Source: Paludibacteraceae bacterium (GTDB lineage Bacteria > Bacteroidota > Bacteroidia > Bacteroidales > Paludibacteraceae). From it: a stretch of DNA of 64,000 nt. Numbering within the stretch: the stretch's first letter is position 1; every line of letters starts with the position of its first letter. Positions 56,783 to 61,913 of the stretch are shown in pieces. The notes below the pieces were generated by a model. It was not told the origin of the DNA and did no database searches. It saw only the letters and a program-made list of their open reading frames with translations. Location: NCBI GenBank assembly GCA_024401475.1, contig JAKSKZ010000004.1:1-64000 (forward strand), written 5' to 3'. The translations under genes and the position numbers were made by a program.

Positions 56783-56821
56783 CAACATTTAATTTTAAAA
56801 TATTATAACAACTTGAATTTC

Positions 56822-58426
56822 ATGAAAAGTATATTTCATTATTCACTATTGGCTGCTGGCCTTATCAGTGCTGCAACTCTTACTGGATGCAAGAGTTCAT
56901 CCAAGGCACCCAAAGCTCCAGAAAAACAAACTACTGTAGTAAAGAAAACTCAAGACAAGAGCATTGTCATCCTTTACGAAAATGACGTTCACTGCGGCAT
57001 CGACGGTTACGCTAAATTGGCTGGTCTTCGCGACGCCATCGCCGATACAGCCTATGTAGCTGTTGTTTCAAGTGGAGATTACCTTCAAGGAGGAACTGCA
57101 GGAGCCATCTCTAAAGGTAAGTATATTGTTGACATCATGAAGAGTGTCGGCTACGATGCTGTAACTCTGGGAAACCACGAGTTCGACTACAAAACGCCAA
57201 GAATGATCGAGCTACTCAATTATTTAGCAGCACCAGTAGTCAATGTCAACCTAAAAGACTCTCAGACTGGTAATTTCGTGTTCATGCCATACGTAATGAA
57301 AAAATATGGCACAAAGAAGGTGGCTTTCGTTGGTGTGACAACCCCAACAACTCGCTACACTGAGGAATACGCATTCTTCGACAACGACGGCAAGCAACTT
57401 TATGAATTGTGCGAGAAAAATGTTTACGAATTAGTTCAAAACGCAGTAAACAGCGCCAGATCTCATGGTGCCAACTATGTGATCGTATTGTCTCACCTTG
57501 GAGAGGATGACAACGACCTTCACGTTGAATCACACGGATTGATTGCCAACACAATGGGCATCGATGTAGTTTTGGACGGTCACACACACTCTGTCGTTCC
57601 TCACGAATATGTAACCGACAAGGGCGGTAGAAAAGTCCTTATTTCTCAAACAGGTACAAAACTCAACAACATAGGTAAACTTTACATTTCTAAAGATGGG
57701 GTTACTATCTCCAACGAATTGGTGCCTACAGCAAACATCAAAGAGAGTCCGATTGTAAAACATACCACTGATAGCATCAAGGCTCTTTCTGAAAACTTCA
57801 CAAGCAGACACGTCGGCACTTCCGACTACAAACTTCGCATTTTGGACGACAAAGGCAATCAACAAGTTCGCCTTGCTGAAACAAACGCAGGAGACCTCGT
57901 TGCAGATGCATTCCGCATAGTCATCGGTTCTCAAATCGGTATGACCAATGGAGGAGGTATTCGTACTGAAGTAAACGCAGGAGAATTGAAAATGGGTAAT
58001 ATCATCGATTTGTTGCCTTACGACAACTATTTGTATGAAGTTGAGGTCGAGGGCAGCACAATTGCTCAGTTGCTCACAAAATGTATCCAAGGCTTGCCTC
58101 ATGAAAATGGAGACTTTCCTCAGGTATCAGGTTTGAAGTTCGATATTGACGCAAAGGCTCACCAGGTTTCAAACATCAAGGTGCTCAACACTAAGACAAA
58201 TGAATACGAACCAATTAAGATGAATAGTCTTTACACCATTGCAACAACAGACTATTGCATCACTGGCGGTGGTATGGGTGGCATCCTAAAAGATAGTAAA
58301 GTCACAAAATCAAGCGTTATGATTTATAGCGAGGCTCTTGTTGAGTACATCAGCAACAACCTCAATGGCCATGTCGGTAAAGAATATGCAGCTCCTCAAG
58401 GTCGCATCAACTTTATCAATAAGTAA
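56822..58426 (+). CDS. lipoprotein 5'-nucleotidase/UshA-type metallophosphatase, copy 1
   Basis: 534 residues from MKSIFHYS. Lipobox TLTGC near residue 24. The calcineurin-like N-domain carries the dimetal motifs ENDVHCGIDGYA, SGDYLQGG, GNHEFDYKTP and DGHTHSVV. The C-terminal 5_nucleotid_C domain has the substrate stretch TNAGDLVADAFRI and NGGGIRTEV. It would hydrolyse extracellular nucleotides or nucleotide sugars at the envelope. It is followed by a terminator and then a close paralogue. Confidence 0.92.
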   Translation: MKSIFHYSLLAAGLISAATLTGCKSSSKAPKAPEKQTTVVKKTQDKSIVILYENDVHCGIDGYAKLAGLRDAIADTAYVAVVSSGDYLQGGTAGAISKGKYIVDIMKSVGYDAVTLGNHEFDYKTPRMIELLNYLAAPVVNVNLKDSQTGNFVFMPYVMKKYGTKKVAFVGVTTPTTRYTEEYAFFDNDGKQLYELCEKNVYELVQNAVNSARSHGANYVIVLSHLGEDDNDLHVESHGLIANTMGIDVVLDGHTHSVVPHEYVTDKGGRKVLISQTGTKLNNIGKLYISKDGVTISNELVPTANIKESPIVKHTTDSIKALSENFTSRHVGTSDYKLRILDDKGNQQVRLAETNAGDLVADAFRIVIGSQIGMTNGGGIRTEVNAGELKMGNIIDLLPYDNYLYEVEVEGSTIAQLLTKCIQGLPHENGDFPQVSGLKFDIDAKAHQVSNIKVLNTKTNEYEPIKMNSLYTIATTDYCITGGGMGGILKDSKVTKSSVMIYSEALVEYISNNLNGHVGKEYAAPQGRINFINK

Positions 58427-58443
58427 TAAAACACAACTCATAG

Positions 58444-58488
58444 ACAGCAGACTAATTCTAAATATTTGAATAGCCTGCTGTTTTTTTT
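58444..58488 (+). terminator. terminator between the two 5'-nucleotidase genes
   Basis: ACAGCAG (58444-58450) with CTGCTGT (58475-58481), then eight T. Confidence 0.85.
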
Positions 58489-58528
58489 GTTTAGAAGGTT
58501 TTCTTGCTAAAAAAACACATTTAAATAT

Positions 58529-60097
58529 ATGATTAAGAAAAATATCTTATTCGTAACCACATGCCTTGCATCCGCCTACATTTTGTCAAGTTGCAAGAGT
58601 AGTCAAAAAATTCCGACTACCCAACCTAAAAGCATTGTCATTCTATACGACAATGATGTTCACTGCAACATTGATGGTTACGCAAAAATAGCTGGCCTAA
58701 GAGACCTAATAAAAGATACGGCAGACGTCACTTTAGTATCGTGTGGAGATTTTCTTCAAGGAGGAATGACAAGCACCCTATCCAAAGGAAAATATATTGT
58801 TGACGTAATGAAACCAGCCAATTATGACATAGTCACGCTTGGAAACCACGAATTCGACTTTGGCACGCCCCACATGATGCAATTGTTGAAAGAATTAAAC
58901 GTACCAGTCACATGCGTTAATTTCAAAGAACATAAAACAGGGAAAGCCCCTTACGCTCCCTATATCATCAAAAAATATGGAGAGAAAAAAATAGCCTTCA
59001 TAGGAGTGTCCACGCCAACGGCCATCACATCAGAACGATACGCATTCTTCGATGAAAATGACGACCAGCTCTACAACATGAGCGAAAATGACATATATCC
59101 ACTCGTTCAAAAAACTATAGATGAAGTTAGAAAGCAAGGTGTTGACTATGTCATTATTTTGTCTCACTTGGGCGAAAAACCTACAGAATACAACATAGAC
59201 TCACGAGGATTGATTGCCAACACTCATGGCATAGATGTAGTTTTTGATGGACATACTCACTCCATTATTGAAAAGGAGATGTTAAAAAACCAAAAGGGAG
59301 AACTTGTCCTCTTGTCTCAAACAGGAACAAAATTTAAAAACATCGGAAAATGTGTAATTCTTCCGAACGGAAAATTTCACACAGAACTAGTTCCCACCAA
59401 AGAAATCAAAGACAATGCTATTGTCAAAAGCGCTATTGATAGCATTAACAATCTATCAGAAAAATATGTAAACAAAGTGATTGGCAATAGCGATTTTGAC
59501 ATAAGAATATCTGACGAAAACGGCAAACGTGCCGTTAGGCGTTCTGAAACAAACGCAGGAGATATCATAGCTGATGCGTTCCGAATTCTCGTGGGATCTG
59601 ACATAGGCATGACAGACGGAGGCAGTGTCCGTGCTGACATAAAGGCTGGAGATATCAAGATAAAAGATGTTTTAAATGTACTACCTTACGACAACTACAT
59701 TTACGAGCTCGAAGTAGATGGAAAACATATTGAAAAGGTTCTTAATGCTTGCATTCAAAAACTGCCCAACGAAGATGGAGAGTTTCCGATAGTCTCAGGT
59801 TTGAAATTCAACATAAAAATTGGACAAGGAGAGAATAAAGTATCAGACATTAAAGTTCTCAACAAAAAAAGCGGAGAATACGAGCCAATTGATTTTGATG
59901 CTAAATATACGGTCGCAACCATCGACTATATTGCAGTAGGAGGAGGAATGTATAATACGTTGAAAGGATGCAAGATTCTCCGGAAAGATCTCATTGTAGA
60001 CAAGGATGCTCTAATAGAGTACATTAGCAAAAATCAAAATGGACACGTTGGGCAAGAATATGCCAAACCACAAGGAAGAATCAAATTCATCCAATAA
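58529..60097 (+). CDS. lipoprotein 5'-nucleotidase/UshA-type metallophosphatase, copy 2
   Basis: 522 residues, paralogue of the preceding gene along its whole length. Lipobox YILSSC near residue 21. Metal motifs DNDVHCNIDGYA, CGDFLQGG, GNHEFDFGTP and DGHTHSII, and C-terminal TNAGDIIADAFRI plus TDGGSVRADI are intact. The substitution of GGG by GGS in the substrate loop may change specificity. The terminator between the copies lets each be controlled separately. Tandem duplication with divergence is the simplest history. Confidence 0.92.
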   Translation: MIKKNILFVTTCLASAYILSSCKSSQKIPTTQPKSIVILYDNDVHCNIDGYAKIAGLRDLIKDTADVTLVSCGDFLQGGMTSTLSKGKYIVDVMKPANYDIVTLGNHEFDFGTPHMMQLLKELNVPVTCVNFKEHKTGKAPYAPYIIKKYGEKKIAFIGVSTPTAITSERYAFFDENDDQLYNMSENDIYPLVQKTIDEVRKQGVDYVIILSHLGEKPTEYNIDSRGLIANTHGIDVVFDGHTHSIIEKEMLKNQKGELVLLSQTGTKFKNIGKCVILPNGKFHTELVPTKEIKDNAIVKSAIDSINNLSEKYVNKVIGNSDFDIRISDENGKRAVRRSETNAGDIIADAFRILVGSDIGMTDGGSVRADIKAGDIKIKDVLNVLPYDNYIYELEVDGKHIEKVLNACIQKLPNEDGEFPIVSGLKFNIKIGQGENKVSDIKVLNKKSGEYEPIDFDAKYTVATIDYIAVGGGMYNTLKGCKILRKDLIVDKDALIEYISKNQNGHVGQEYAKPQGRIKFIQ

Positions 60098-60155: not shown

Positions 60156-60569
60156 ATGAATTTCTTCACAGCAATAAGATCTTTGGCCAACAAATGTATT
60201 TTGTCGACCATCGGCATGATTGGATTCTGTTTTTCATGCAACTCCGCCCGCGAATATGGAGTTCCTACCGTATCTTACGAATTCAAGGGTACCGTAACTG
60301 ACGAAAACGGATTGCCTCTAGAAAATGTAAAAGTAAACATTGAGACATGGAACACTAACAAATCCTGCAACACAGACCCAAACGGATTCTACACAGCAAA
60401 AACAGAATATATCCGACCCGACAAAGTCAATCTGGAATTTTCCAAAGATGGTTACGAGAAAAAAGATGTGAGTTTCGACTCCGACGATTTCGATTACAAA
60501 AAAGGGAATGGCAAATACGACAAGCATGGTGAAAAGAACTTGAACATATCTCTTCGTAAAAAACAATAA
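60156..60569 (+). CDS. radical-SAM-associated lipoprotein (substrate candidate)
   Basis: 137 residues. An N-terminal segment ending GMIGFCFSC provides a lipobox-like Cys (about residue 28), followed by SAREYGVPTV, then a carboxypeptidase-regulatory-like beta domain (KGTVTDENGLPLENVKVNIE). It matches the rSAM/lipoprotein partner family (TIGR04134 type) that Haft and colleagues described beside TIGR04133 radical SAM enzymes. The matching enzyme lies 255 bp downstream. It is likely processed and modified at the envelope-facing N-terminus; the chemistry is unknown. Confidence 0.78.
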   Translation: MNFFTAIRSLANKCILSTIGMIGFCFSCNSAREYGVPTVSYEFKGTVTDENGLPLENVKVNIETWNTNKSCNTDPNGFYTAKTEYIRPDKVNLEFSKDGYEKKDVSFDSDDFDYKKGNGKYDKHGEKNLNISLRKKQ

Positions 60570-60660: not shown

Positions 60661-60798
60661 ATGAAAAGAATTTTCATTTCGGAAAGATGTTTAATGAACC
60701 AATTAATTTATTCATTAATTGGCATGACCGGATTTTATACTTCTTGCACAAAACTGAACTCTCATGCGAGGATGGGAGTCCATCCGCATAAAAACTAA
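60661..60798 (+). CDS. 45-residue miniature lipoprotein beside the radical SAM gene
   Basis: MKRIFISERCLMNQLIYSLI, then GMTGFYTSC, then TKLNSHARMGVHPHKN and a stop. It mirrors the N-terminus of the larger lipoprotein (STIGMIGFCFSC followed by AREYGVP): a hydrophobic segment ending G-M-x-G-F-x-x-S-C, then A-R-x-G-V. It lacks the whole beta domain and ends in a His-rich tail. It lies 26 bp upstream of the radical SAM enzyme. It may be a second substrate or a decayed paralogue; its close spacing and preserved motif favour a functional peptide. Confidence 0.6.
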   Translation: MKRIFISERCLMNQLIYSLIGMTGFYTSCTKLNSHARMGVHPHKN

Positions 60799-60824: not shown

Positions 60825-61913
60825 ATGGTAGAGAATCCCGAAAAAATAGGTTTGAAGAAAAGGTTTGCACTAAACCTTTTTGACCATTACAGACATAATG
60901 AGGCCAAGAATCATCAACTCAGATATCTTTTTTGGGAATGTACGCTAAGGTGCACACTCAACTGCCTACATTGTGGTAGTGACTGCAAACAGATGACTAA
61001 TGTACCAGACATGCCAGTTGACGACTTTATTGGTGCAATAAAGAAAATCATTCCTATCGTCAATCCCAACCACACAATGGTGGTCTTCACGGGAGGCGAA
61101 GCCTTGGTAAGAAAAGACATTGAAGCAGCAGGCATAGAACTCTATAAAATGGGATTTCCATGGGGACTCGTCACCAATGGTTACTTACTGACCCAAGAGA
61201 GGTTAGTCTCTTTGTTACGAGCAGGCATGAGATCTTGCACAGTCAGCCTTGACGGGCTAAAAGATTCGCACAATTGGTTACGCAACAATCCTCTATCATT
61301 TGACAAAGCAATCGAGGCCATAAAGCTACTTCCCCAAACAGATTTACGTTATGATGTAGTGACGTGCGTGAACAACCGCAATTTTGACGAACTTCCTCAA
61401 ATCAAACAGATGCTCATAGACATGGGGGTGAAAGAGTGGAGAATATTCACCATTTTCCCCGTTGGAAGAGCAGCCAACAATCCTGAATTACAATTGCCCG
61501 ACAAAAAATTCAAAGCAGTATTTGATTTTATAGAAGAGACTCGAAATGAAGGGAAAATTGCTCTCGACTATGGCTGTGAAGGATTTCTTGGAGAATACGA
61601 GTCACGAGCCAGAGATTCATTCTTCTTCTGTCGTGCAGGAATCAATGTGGGCTCCATCTTGGTGGATGGTAGCATCTCTGCTTGCCCTGACCTACGAAGT
61701 CGTTTTATACAAGGCAATATCTACAAAGACGACTTTGCTGATGTGTGGCAAAACAAGTTTCAAATCATGCGAGACAGAAGTTGGACCAAAACAGGCATTT
61801 GTAAAGATTGTGAGTTTTTCAAACACTGCGAAGGGAATGGCCTCCATCTTAGAGATGAAGAGACTAATGAACTCGCTTTCTGTCATTTAAAAAGAATCAT
61901 AGCCGGGAAATAA
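60825..61913 (+). CDS. radical SAM/SPASM enzyme of the rSAM-lipoprotein system
   Basis: 362 residues. The SAM-binding 4Fe-4S cluster motif is CTLNCLHC (about residue 46), preceded by an additional Cys pair. GGEAL and the glycine/Ser loop VSLDGLKDSHN fit the rSAM barrel. The C-terminal SPASM domain has Cys in FFFCRAGINVGSI, SACPDLRSR and GICKDCEFFKHCEGN, enough for two auxiliary clusters. It belongs by motif and context to the TIGR04133 rSAM/lipoprotein group. The reaction is uncharacterised; SPASM enzymes usually form C-C, C-S or thioether links in peptides. Confidence 0.88.
   Translation: MVENPEKIGLKKRFALNLFDHYRHNEAKNHQLRYLFWECTLRCTLNCLHCGSDCKQMTNVPDMPVDDFIGAIKKIIPIVNPNHTMVVFTGGEALVRKDIEAAGIELYKMGFPWGLVTNGYLLTQERLVSLLRAGMRSCTVSLDGLKDSHNWLRNNPLSFDKAIEAIKLLPQTDLRYDVVTCVNNRNFDELPQIKQMLIDMGVKEWRIFTIFPVGRAANNPELQLPDKKFKAVFDFIEETRNEGKIALDYGCEGFLGEYESRARDSFFFCRAGINVGSILVDGSISACPDLRSRFIQGNIYKDDFADVWQNKFQIMRDRSWTKTGICKDCEFFKHCEGNGLHLRDEETNELAFCHLKRIIAGK

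Follow-up and report, generated by a model that had tools for sequence, protein, structure and literature searches.

A short open reading frame upstream of a TIGR04133 radical SAM enzyme is probably a frameshifted remnant of a TIGR04134-type gene

Results

The window, i.e. the whole stretch of 64,000 nucleotides of Paludibacteraceae DNA that was analysed, belongs to a draft assembly of 3.6 Mb in 88 contigs (G000) representing one strain of the species. It contains an intact gene for a TIGR04133 radical SAM/SPASM enzyme (60825–61913, + strand; 572.1 bits, cut-off 425). Of 144 enzymes aligned, at least 143 share each of its cysteines C43, C47 and C50 (CX3CX2C) and C269, C287, C326, C329 and C335 of the SPASM region. 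Upstream lies an intact gene for a TIGR04134 lipoprotein with a CarboxypepD_reg-like beta domain (60156–60569, + strand; TIGR04134 57.2 bits, cut-off 39.8; PF13620 34.6 bits). This protein combines all the features of TIGR04134, namely a score above the model cut-off, a lipobox, a YGxP motif and the beta domain; the lipobox and the motif, REYGVPTVSY with the Y-G-V-P codons at 60255–60266, were read from the sequence. Enzyme and lipoprotein thus exceed both curated cut-offs of a pair that NCBIfam describes as hypothetical equivalogs. Two tandem genes for 5′-nucleotidase/UshA-like lipoproteins adjoin the locus (56813–58426, and 58529–60097 on the + strand).

Between the lipoprotein and the enzyme genes lies a short open reading frame (sORF; 60661–60798, + strand) that had been singled out in a sequence-only reading of the window as an unannotated 45-codon lipoprotein paralogue located 26 bp before the radical SAM gene. 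The coordinates bear this out: the frame opens with an ATG at 60661, closes with a stop codon at 60796–60798, encodes 45 amino acids and is followed after 26 bp by the enzyme start at 60825. The same reading correctly noted that there is no beta domain. The sORF product matches no NCBIfam family at E values up to 1, staying below the TIGR04134 cut-off of 39.8 bits, and a Pfam scan gave only a chance-level match. No CarboxypepD_reg-like domain was found in it, and a mere 77 nt separate its Cys codon from the enzyme start.

The first 29 residues of the sORF (60661–60747, + strand, Cys codon at 60745–60747) form a signal-peptide-like leader with a lipobox and, judged by their sequence, are truly paralogous to the leader of the TIGR04134 lipoprotein. 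With a matrix derived from nine congeneric leaders, this stretch ranks second among 550 Cys-anchored stretches of the window with 25.4 bits, the next one scoring 13.0; rank one is the lipoprotein at 60156–60569, itself a member of the training set. A matrix for a shorter core, built from seven of the nine leaders, gives the sORF 15.7 bits; the other 778 ORFs in the window reach 10.9 at most. The resemblance to the G-M-x-G-F-x-x-S-C pattern of the larger lipoprotein, proposed from the sequence alone, is therefore real, even if the sORF was missed by a looser HMM built only from leaders of other genera; this HMM is poorly specific and ranked the true lipoprotein low. When the sORF protein was searched against the four genomes of the genus, only weak matches were obtained besides the sORF itself. 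Those in G000 (E 0.04) and G003 (E 0.93) fall on lipoprotein leaders of the enzyme locus; the match in G002 (E 0.33) lies away from such leaders, and G001 gave none.

The part downstream of the cysteine was compared with a matrix of the family motif (E-Y-G-x-P-x-A-D-Y-like) derived from 172 lipoproteins. In the frame of the sORF no YGxP is present and the tail scores −12.1 bits, a value matched by 1791 of 4000 shuffles. Nor does the in-frame tail add a significant gain to alignments with nine congeneric lipoproteins (equalled by 467 to 854 of 1000 shuffles). The A-R-x-G-V pattern that had been aligned with the lipoprotein after the Cys is thus at chance level, and we have rejected this alignment. 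The picture changes in the frame shifted by +2 (−1), where a motif remnant C-E-D-G-S-P-S-A-stop, derivable from xEYGxPSA(D)(Y), is found at 60765–60791 (+ strand). It scores 14.3 bits, which was equalled by none of 4000 dinucleotide shuffles and by none of 39747 segments of the window and exceeds 11.4, the 5th percentile among the motifs used for training. In this remnant the motif Tyr is replaced by Asp and a stop codon follows directly after the motif. Against the nine congeneric tails the shifted-frame tail scores 41, a value that none of 1000 shuffles reaches. The histidine-rich end of the sORF (MGVHPHKN), previously considered a possible property of a peptide product, is the old motif read out of frame.

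Alignments at the DNA level to three paralogues, from G000, G002 and G003, also place the motif in the shifted frame. A frameshift-tolerant alignment to the enzyme-adjacent gene of G003 spans both leader and motif with a score of 65, versus 53 without a shift; for one G002 gene the corresponding values are 60 and 39. The adjacent G000 lipoprotein behaves differently: NSHARMGV aligns in frame with NSAREYGV (score 59) and allowing for a frameshift brings no gain, as is also the case for the genes G002a and G002c. This in-frame alignment is the source of the A-R-x-G-V impression and counts against reading the sORF as a remnant. Two further candidates were examined. The survival of more of the beta domain downstream, in the form of TNEN from an original TDEN, is unsupported: the best block over three frames was equalled by 50 of 1000 shuffles, which is not significant, and the TNEN block scored lower. 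Programmed frameshifting within the sORF is unsupported as well, because the shifted product would end in CEDGSPSA and lack the Tyr; by eye, no canonical slippery site was seen in the sORF.

The TIGR04133 enzymes of congeners are 79–88% identical, and the downstream neighbours of the locus in the window recur in G001 (87–88% identity) and G002 (74–76%). In G001, G002 and G003 the gene directly before the enzyme encodes a full-length lipoprotein, and tandem lipoprotein paralogues are present in congeners where the sORF sits. Near the 146 other distinct TIGR04133 genes, among 305 short ORFs examined, no orthologue of the sORF was seen; the best ORF after the sORF itself reached a raw score of 36, compared with 242 for the self match, and turned out to be a YGxP protein. 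A survey of this kind had been proposed together with the original idea, and lack of conservation, named there as evidence against it, is what we found. We also asked whether the sORF might be orthologous to the short YGGP proteins found in G002 and G003, and rejected this since protein searches in the four genomes of the genus did not link them.

Among 250 genomes sampled from the family, TIGR04133 was found in 119. A census of its surroundings covered 161 records, the window among them, and 159 of these had an enzyme ORF; 15 listed matches (mostly partial or lower-scoring) were left out. Merging enzymes identical over about the last 200 residues gave 147 distinct TIGR04133 genes. YGxP proteins with a beta domain occur near 102 of these, and proteins without it near 43. 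Both types are found at 19 enzyme genes, neither at 21, and at 24 the type lacking the beta domain is the sole substrate-like protein recognised. All these substrate counts are lower bounds since some flanks comprise 1500 bases only, and less at contig ends. The general part of the earlier proposal, that short lipoproteins without a beta domain work with these enzymes and tend to be overlooked, thus gains support from other loci (44 distinct proteins of 52–159 amino acids near the 43 enzyme genes), while for the sORF itself it is not supported. The 44 are what was left of 50 proteins without a beta-domain match after six unrelated ones had been removed by eye. Under a slightly looser pattern they contain one (19 proteins), two (18), three (5), four (1) or five (1) copies of a YGxP-type motif. 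As YG[TCVSPAMGIE]P was the seed of the census, short relatives without the seed motif are not counted; variants exist in L029 and L080 and one in L142. In a control on the opposite strand four ORFs combined a lipobox with YGxP, against 168 on the coding strand (duplicates unmerged). Genuine small partner proteins of TIGR04133 enzymes therefore appear, by sequence and gene neighbourhood, to occur in many gut bacteria.

Twelve short proteins were aligned, nine of them belonging to the set of 44, two encoded on contig C63 of G003 and one on contig C38 of G000; Y, G and P are the sole invariant columns. No convincing Pfam domain was found on scanning these 12, and TIGR04134 matched five of them weakly (best E 0.0011, well under the 39.8-bit cut-off). 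Folded domains went undetected in some short lipoproteins with three, four or five YGxP motifs, among them those of L122, L132, L097, L095 and L113. A recurrent short lipoprotein encoded upstream of the enzyme (L030, L094, L096, L101, L029, L080) has a doubled motif, such as YGIxPMYGVP or YGVxPMYGV, and in L030 its gene directly precedes that of a full-length lipoprotein.

The lipid anchor is not universal either. The substrate-like proteins in ten stretches from related genomes combine a signal peptide that lacks the lipobox Cys with YGCP as motif and with a beta domain; these LYGCP proteins of about 260–280 amino acids with a TIGR04134-like domain are encoded upstream of the enzyme (L066, L064, L073, L077, L078, L085, L089, L092, L068, L086). 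The two YGCP proteins that were scanned match, in place of a lipid anchor, the T9SS type A sorting domain TIGR04183 (47.5 and 37.1 bits, cut-off 23) and score 33.2 and 44.2 bits with TIGR04134 (cut-off 39.8). By eye, the remaining ones end in similar C-terminal tails. A further form lies in the genome of the window but outside the window itself, on contig C38 of G000 (L192:1504-1698). This protein of 64 amino acids has the family leader, with a Trp where the lipobox Cys would stand, and the GMYGAPPNYNYG motif, in the context G-M-Y-G-A-P-P-N-Y. The genome search found no TIGR04133 gene on this contig, and the protein is a possible trans-encoded substrate. Searches with it gave weak matches in G002 and G003, the short YGGP genes of these genomes among them. 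The leader core is common to the lipoprotein, Cys-less, signal-peptidase-I-like and T9SS forms, with scores of 15.7–29.0 bits for eight leaders.

Discussion

The sORF is very probably a frameshifted and truncated remnant of a TIGR04134-type substrate gene, lying beside an intact enzyme gene and one intact lipoprotein gene. This reading is based on the family motif in the shifted frame, the lost Tyr, the 77 nt that are left, the full-length genes of the congeners and the absence of an orthologous frame. By analogy with the congeners, the ancestral gene would have encoded a signal-peptide leader up to the lipobox Cys, followed by the YGxP motif and then by a beta domain. The present arrangement would have arisen through a net frameshift between the Cys and the motif, replacement of the motif Tyr by Asp, a stop just after the motif and a deletion of about 300 nt. 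The lesions themselves can be read directly off the present-day DNA; that the missing part was a beta domain, and that the sORF lacks one because it was lost, we infer from the congeners. The enzyme would now serve the intact lipoprotein and perhaps also the YGAP protein on the other contig. Substrate paralogues probably come and go in tandem, and the gene from which the sORF descends would be one that has gone. Compared with the TIGR04134 family as a whole, leader and shifted-frame motif of the sORF derive from it, but the sORF is frameshifted and has neither the motif Tyr, nor the beta domain, nor a match to the model.

It could be argued that the sORF is nevertheless functional, its product being an acylated lipopeptide with a tail of 16 residues after the Cys ending in MGVHPHKN, that is modified by the enzyme or acts as a decoy or as a competitor consisting of little more than the leader. 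The frame does have an ATG, a plausible lipobox and an intact stop codon before the enzyme gene and could be translated, the leader is clearly of the TIGR04134 family, and genuine short substrate-like proteins exist elsewhere. However, the in-frame tail contains no family motif and shows no similarity beyond chance, and none of the 146 other enzyme genes is accompanied by an orthologue. With the motif out of frame, its Tyr lost, the frame unconserved and the congener gene full-length, the suggestion that the sORF represents a minimal substrate or a peptide product in its own right appears unlikely to us. That YGxP is kept in all 44 short proteins is no independent argument in this matter because the count was built on the motif. 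These proteins resemble the sORF in their type of leader and in lacking the beta domain, but they differ from it by their one to five in-frame motifs and their length, and their TIGR04134 matches are at best weak.

An error of assembly or sequencing, by which tandem paralogues were collapsed so that the real genome would still contain an intact lipoprotein gene, might be suspected in a draft of 88 contigs, particularly as congeners have tandem paralogues at the same place. Yet a loss of about 300 nt goes beyond any base error, the Tyr-to-Asp change and the stop codon are additional lesions, and the genes on both sides are intact; we regard such an artefact as very improbable. The idea that the sORF is a chance open frame of no lipoprotein ancestry is in practice refuted: short frames are indeed common (64 ORFs of at least 30 amino acids in 6.5 kb), but leader and shifted-frame motif both lie far above chance.

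Taken alone the remnant, a relic of a known family, is of little weight, apart from the warning that a convincing short frame with a start codon can hide a frameshift. What is new are the short, the multi-motif and the T9SS-sorted substrate-like proteins. What all the forms seen among the sequences compared have in common is the leader and YGxP, and the beta domain, the lipidation and the genetic linkage to the enzyme appear optional; the YGxP half of this commonality is partly built in through the seed of the census, the leader half is not. We slightly favour a modular reading, in which TIGR04133 serves RiPP-like surface substrates composed of YGxP cores, one to five in number, and of a constant leader of roughly the form R-x-x-x-[NR]-K-x-I-x-S-L-L-x-x-x-G-F, with the beta domain, the lipid anchor and genetic linkage as options, and in which the sORF is a relic of a pool with fast turnover. 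Short multi-core peptides lacking a folded domain, T9SS-sorted proteins and proteins encoded elsewhere in the genome would be its variants.

From the shared leader and YGxP a putative leader-guided modification can be proposed. The enzyme would recognise the leader and, while the protein is still in the cytoplasm, modify YGxP by its radical SAM/SPASM chemistry. The product would then be exported through Sec and lipidated or, in the other subtype, sorted by the T9SS. The pairing of the two genes as RiPP-like precursor and maturase, suggested by motif conservation and gene neighbourhood, is likewise putative, and repeated YGxP motifs would fit a multi-core substrate. The Gly found at the third motif position in some members would speak against the beta carbon of this residue being cross-linked. 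TIGR04133 has so far been annotated only as the hypothetical partner of a lipoprotein. The proteins that lack a beta domain, have several motif copies or are sorted by the T9SS reduce what the enzyme probably targets to some four residues, YGxP, attached to a leader that can be recognised, and the chemistry thereby becomes directly testable with small co-expressed peptides.

In the open-licence literature we found no paper that names TIGR04133, TIGR04134 or a radical SAM-associated lipoprotein pair, nor, with broader searches, one recognisably concerned with this pair, which is no proof of absence, and the term 'YGxP' does not occur in the accessible part of PMC10352776, a mining study of Bacteroidales RiPPs. 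The radical SAM/SPASM peptide maturases SkfB (6efn) and PqqE (6c8v), which gave sequence matches in the PDB, are distant (phmmer E 2.3e-10 and 2e-4, respectively).

The substrates of SkfB and PqqE are peptides of other kinds than the YGxP proteins. RiPPs such as the bufferins have precursors with Sec signal peptides, comparable to the signal-peptide-like leaders of the YGxP proteins, but are modified by MNIO and not by radical SAM enzymes.

The 5′-nucleotidase genes next to the locus have a counterpart in G003, whose pair resembles that at 56813–60097. Directly after the two tandem 5′-nucleotidase genes of G003 follow two tandem short YGGP proteins of 80 and 84 amino acids (L208:60-570, contig C63), one of them a lipoprotein and the other with a signal-peptidase-I-like end.
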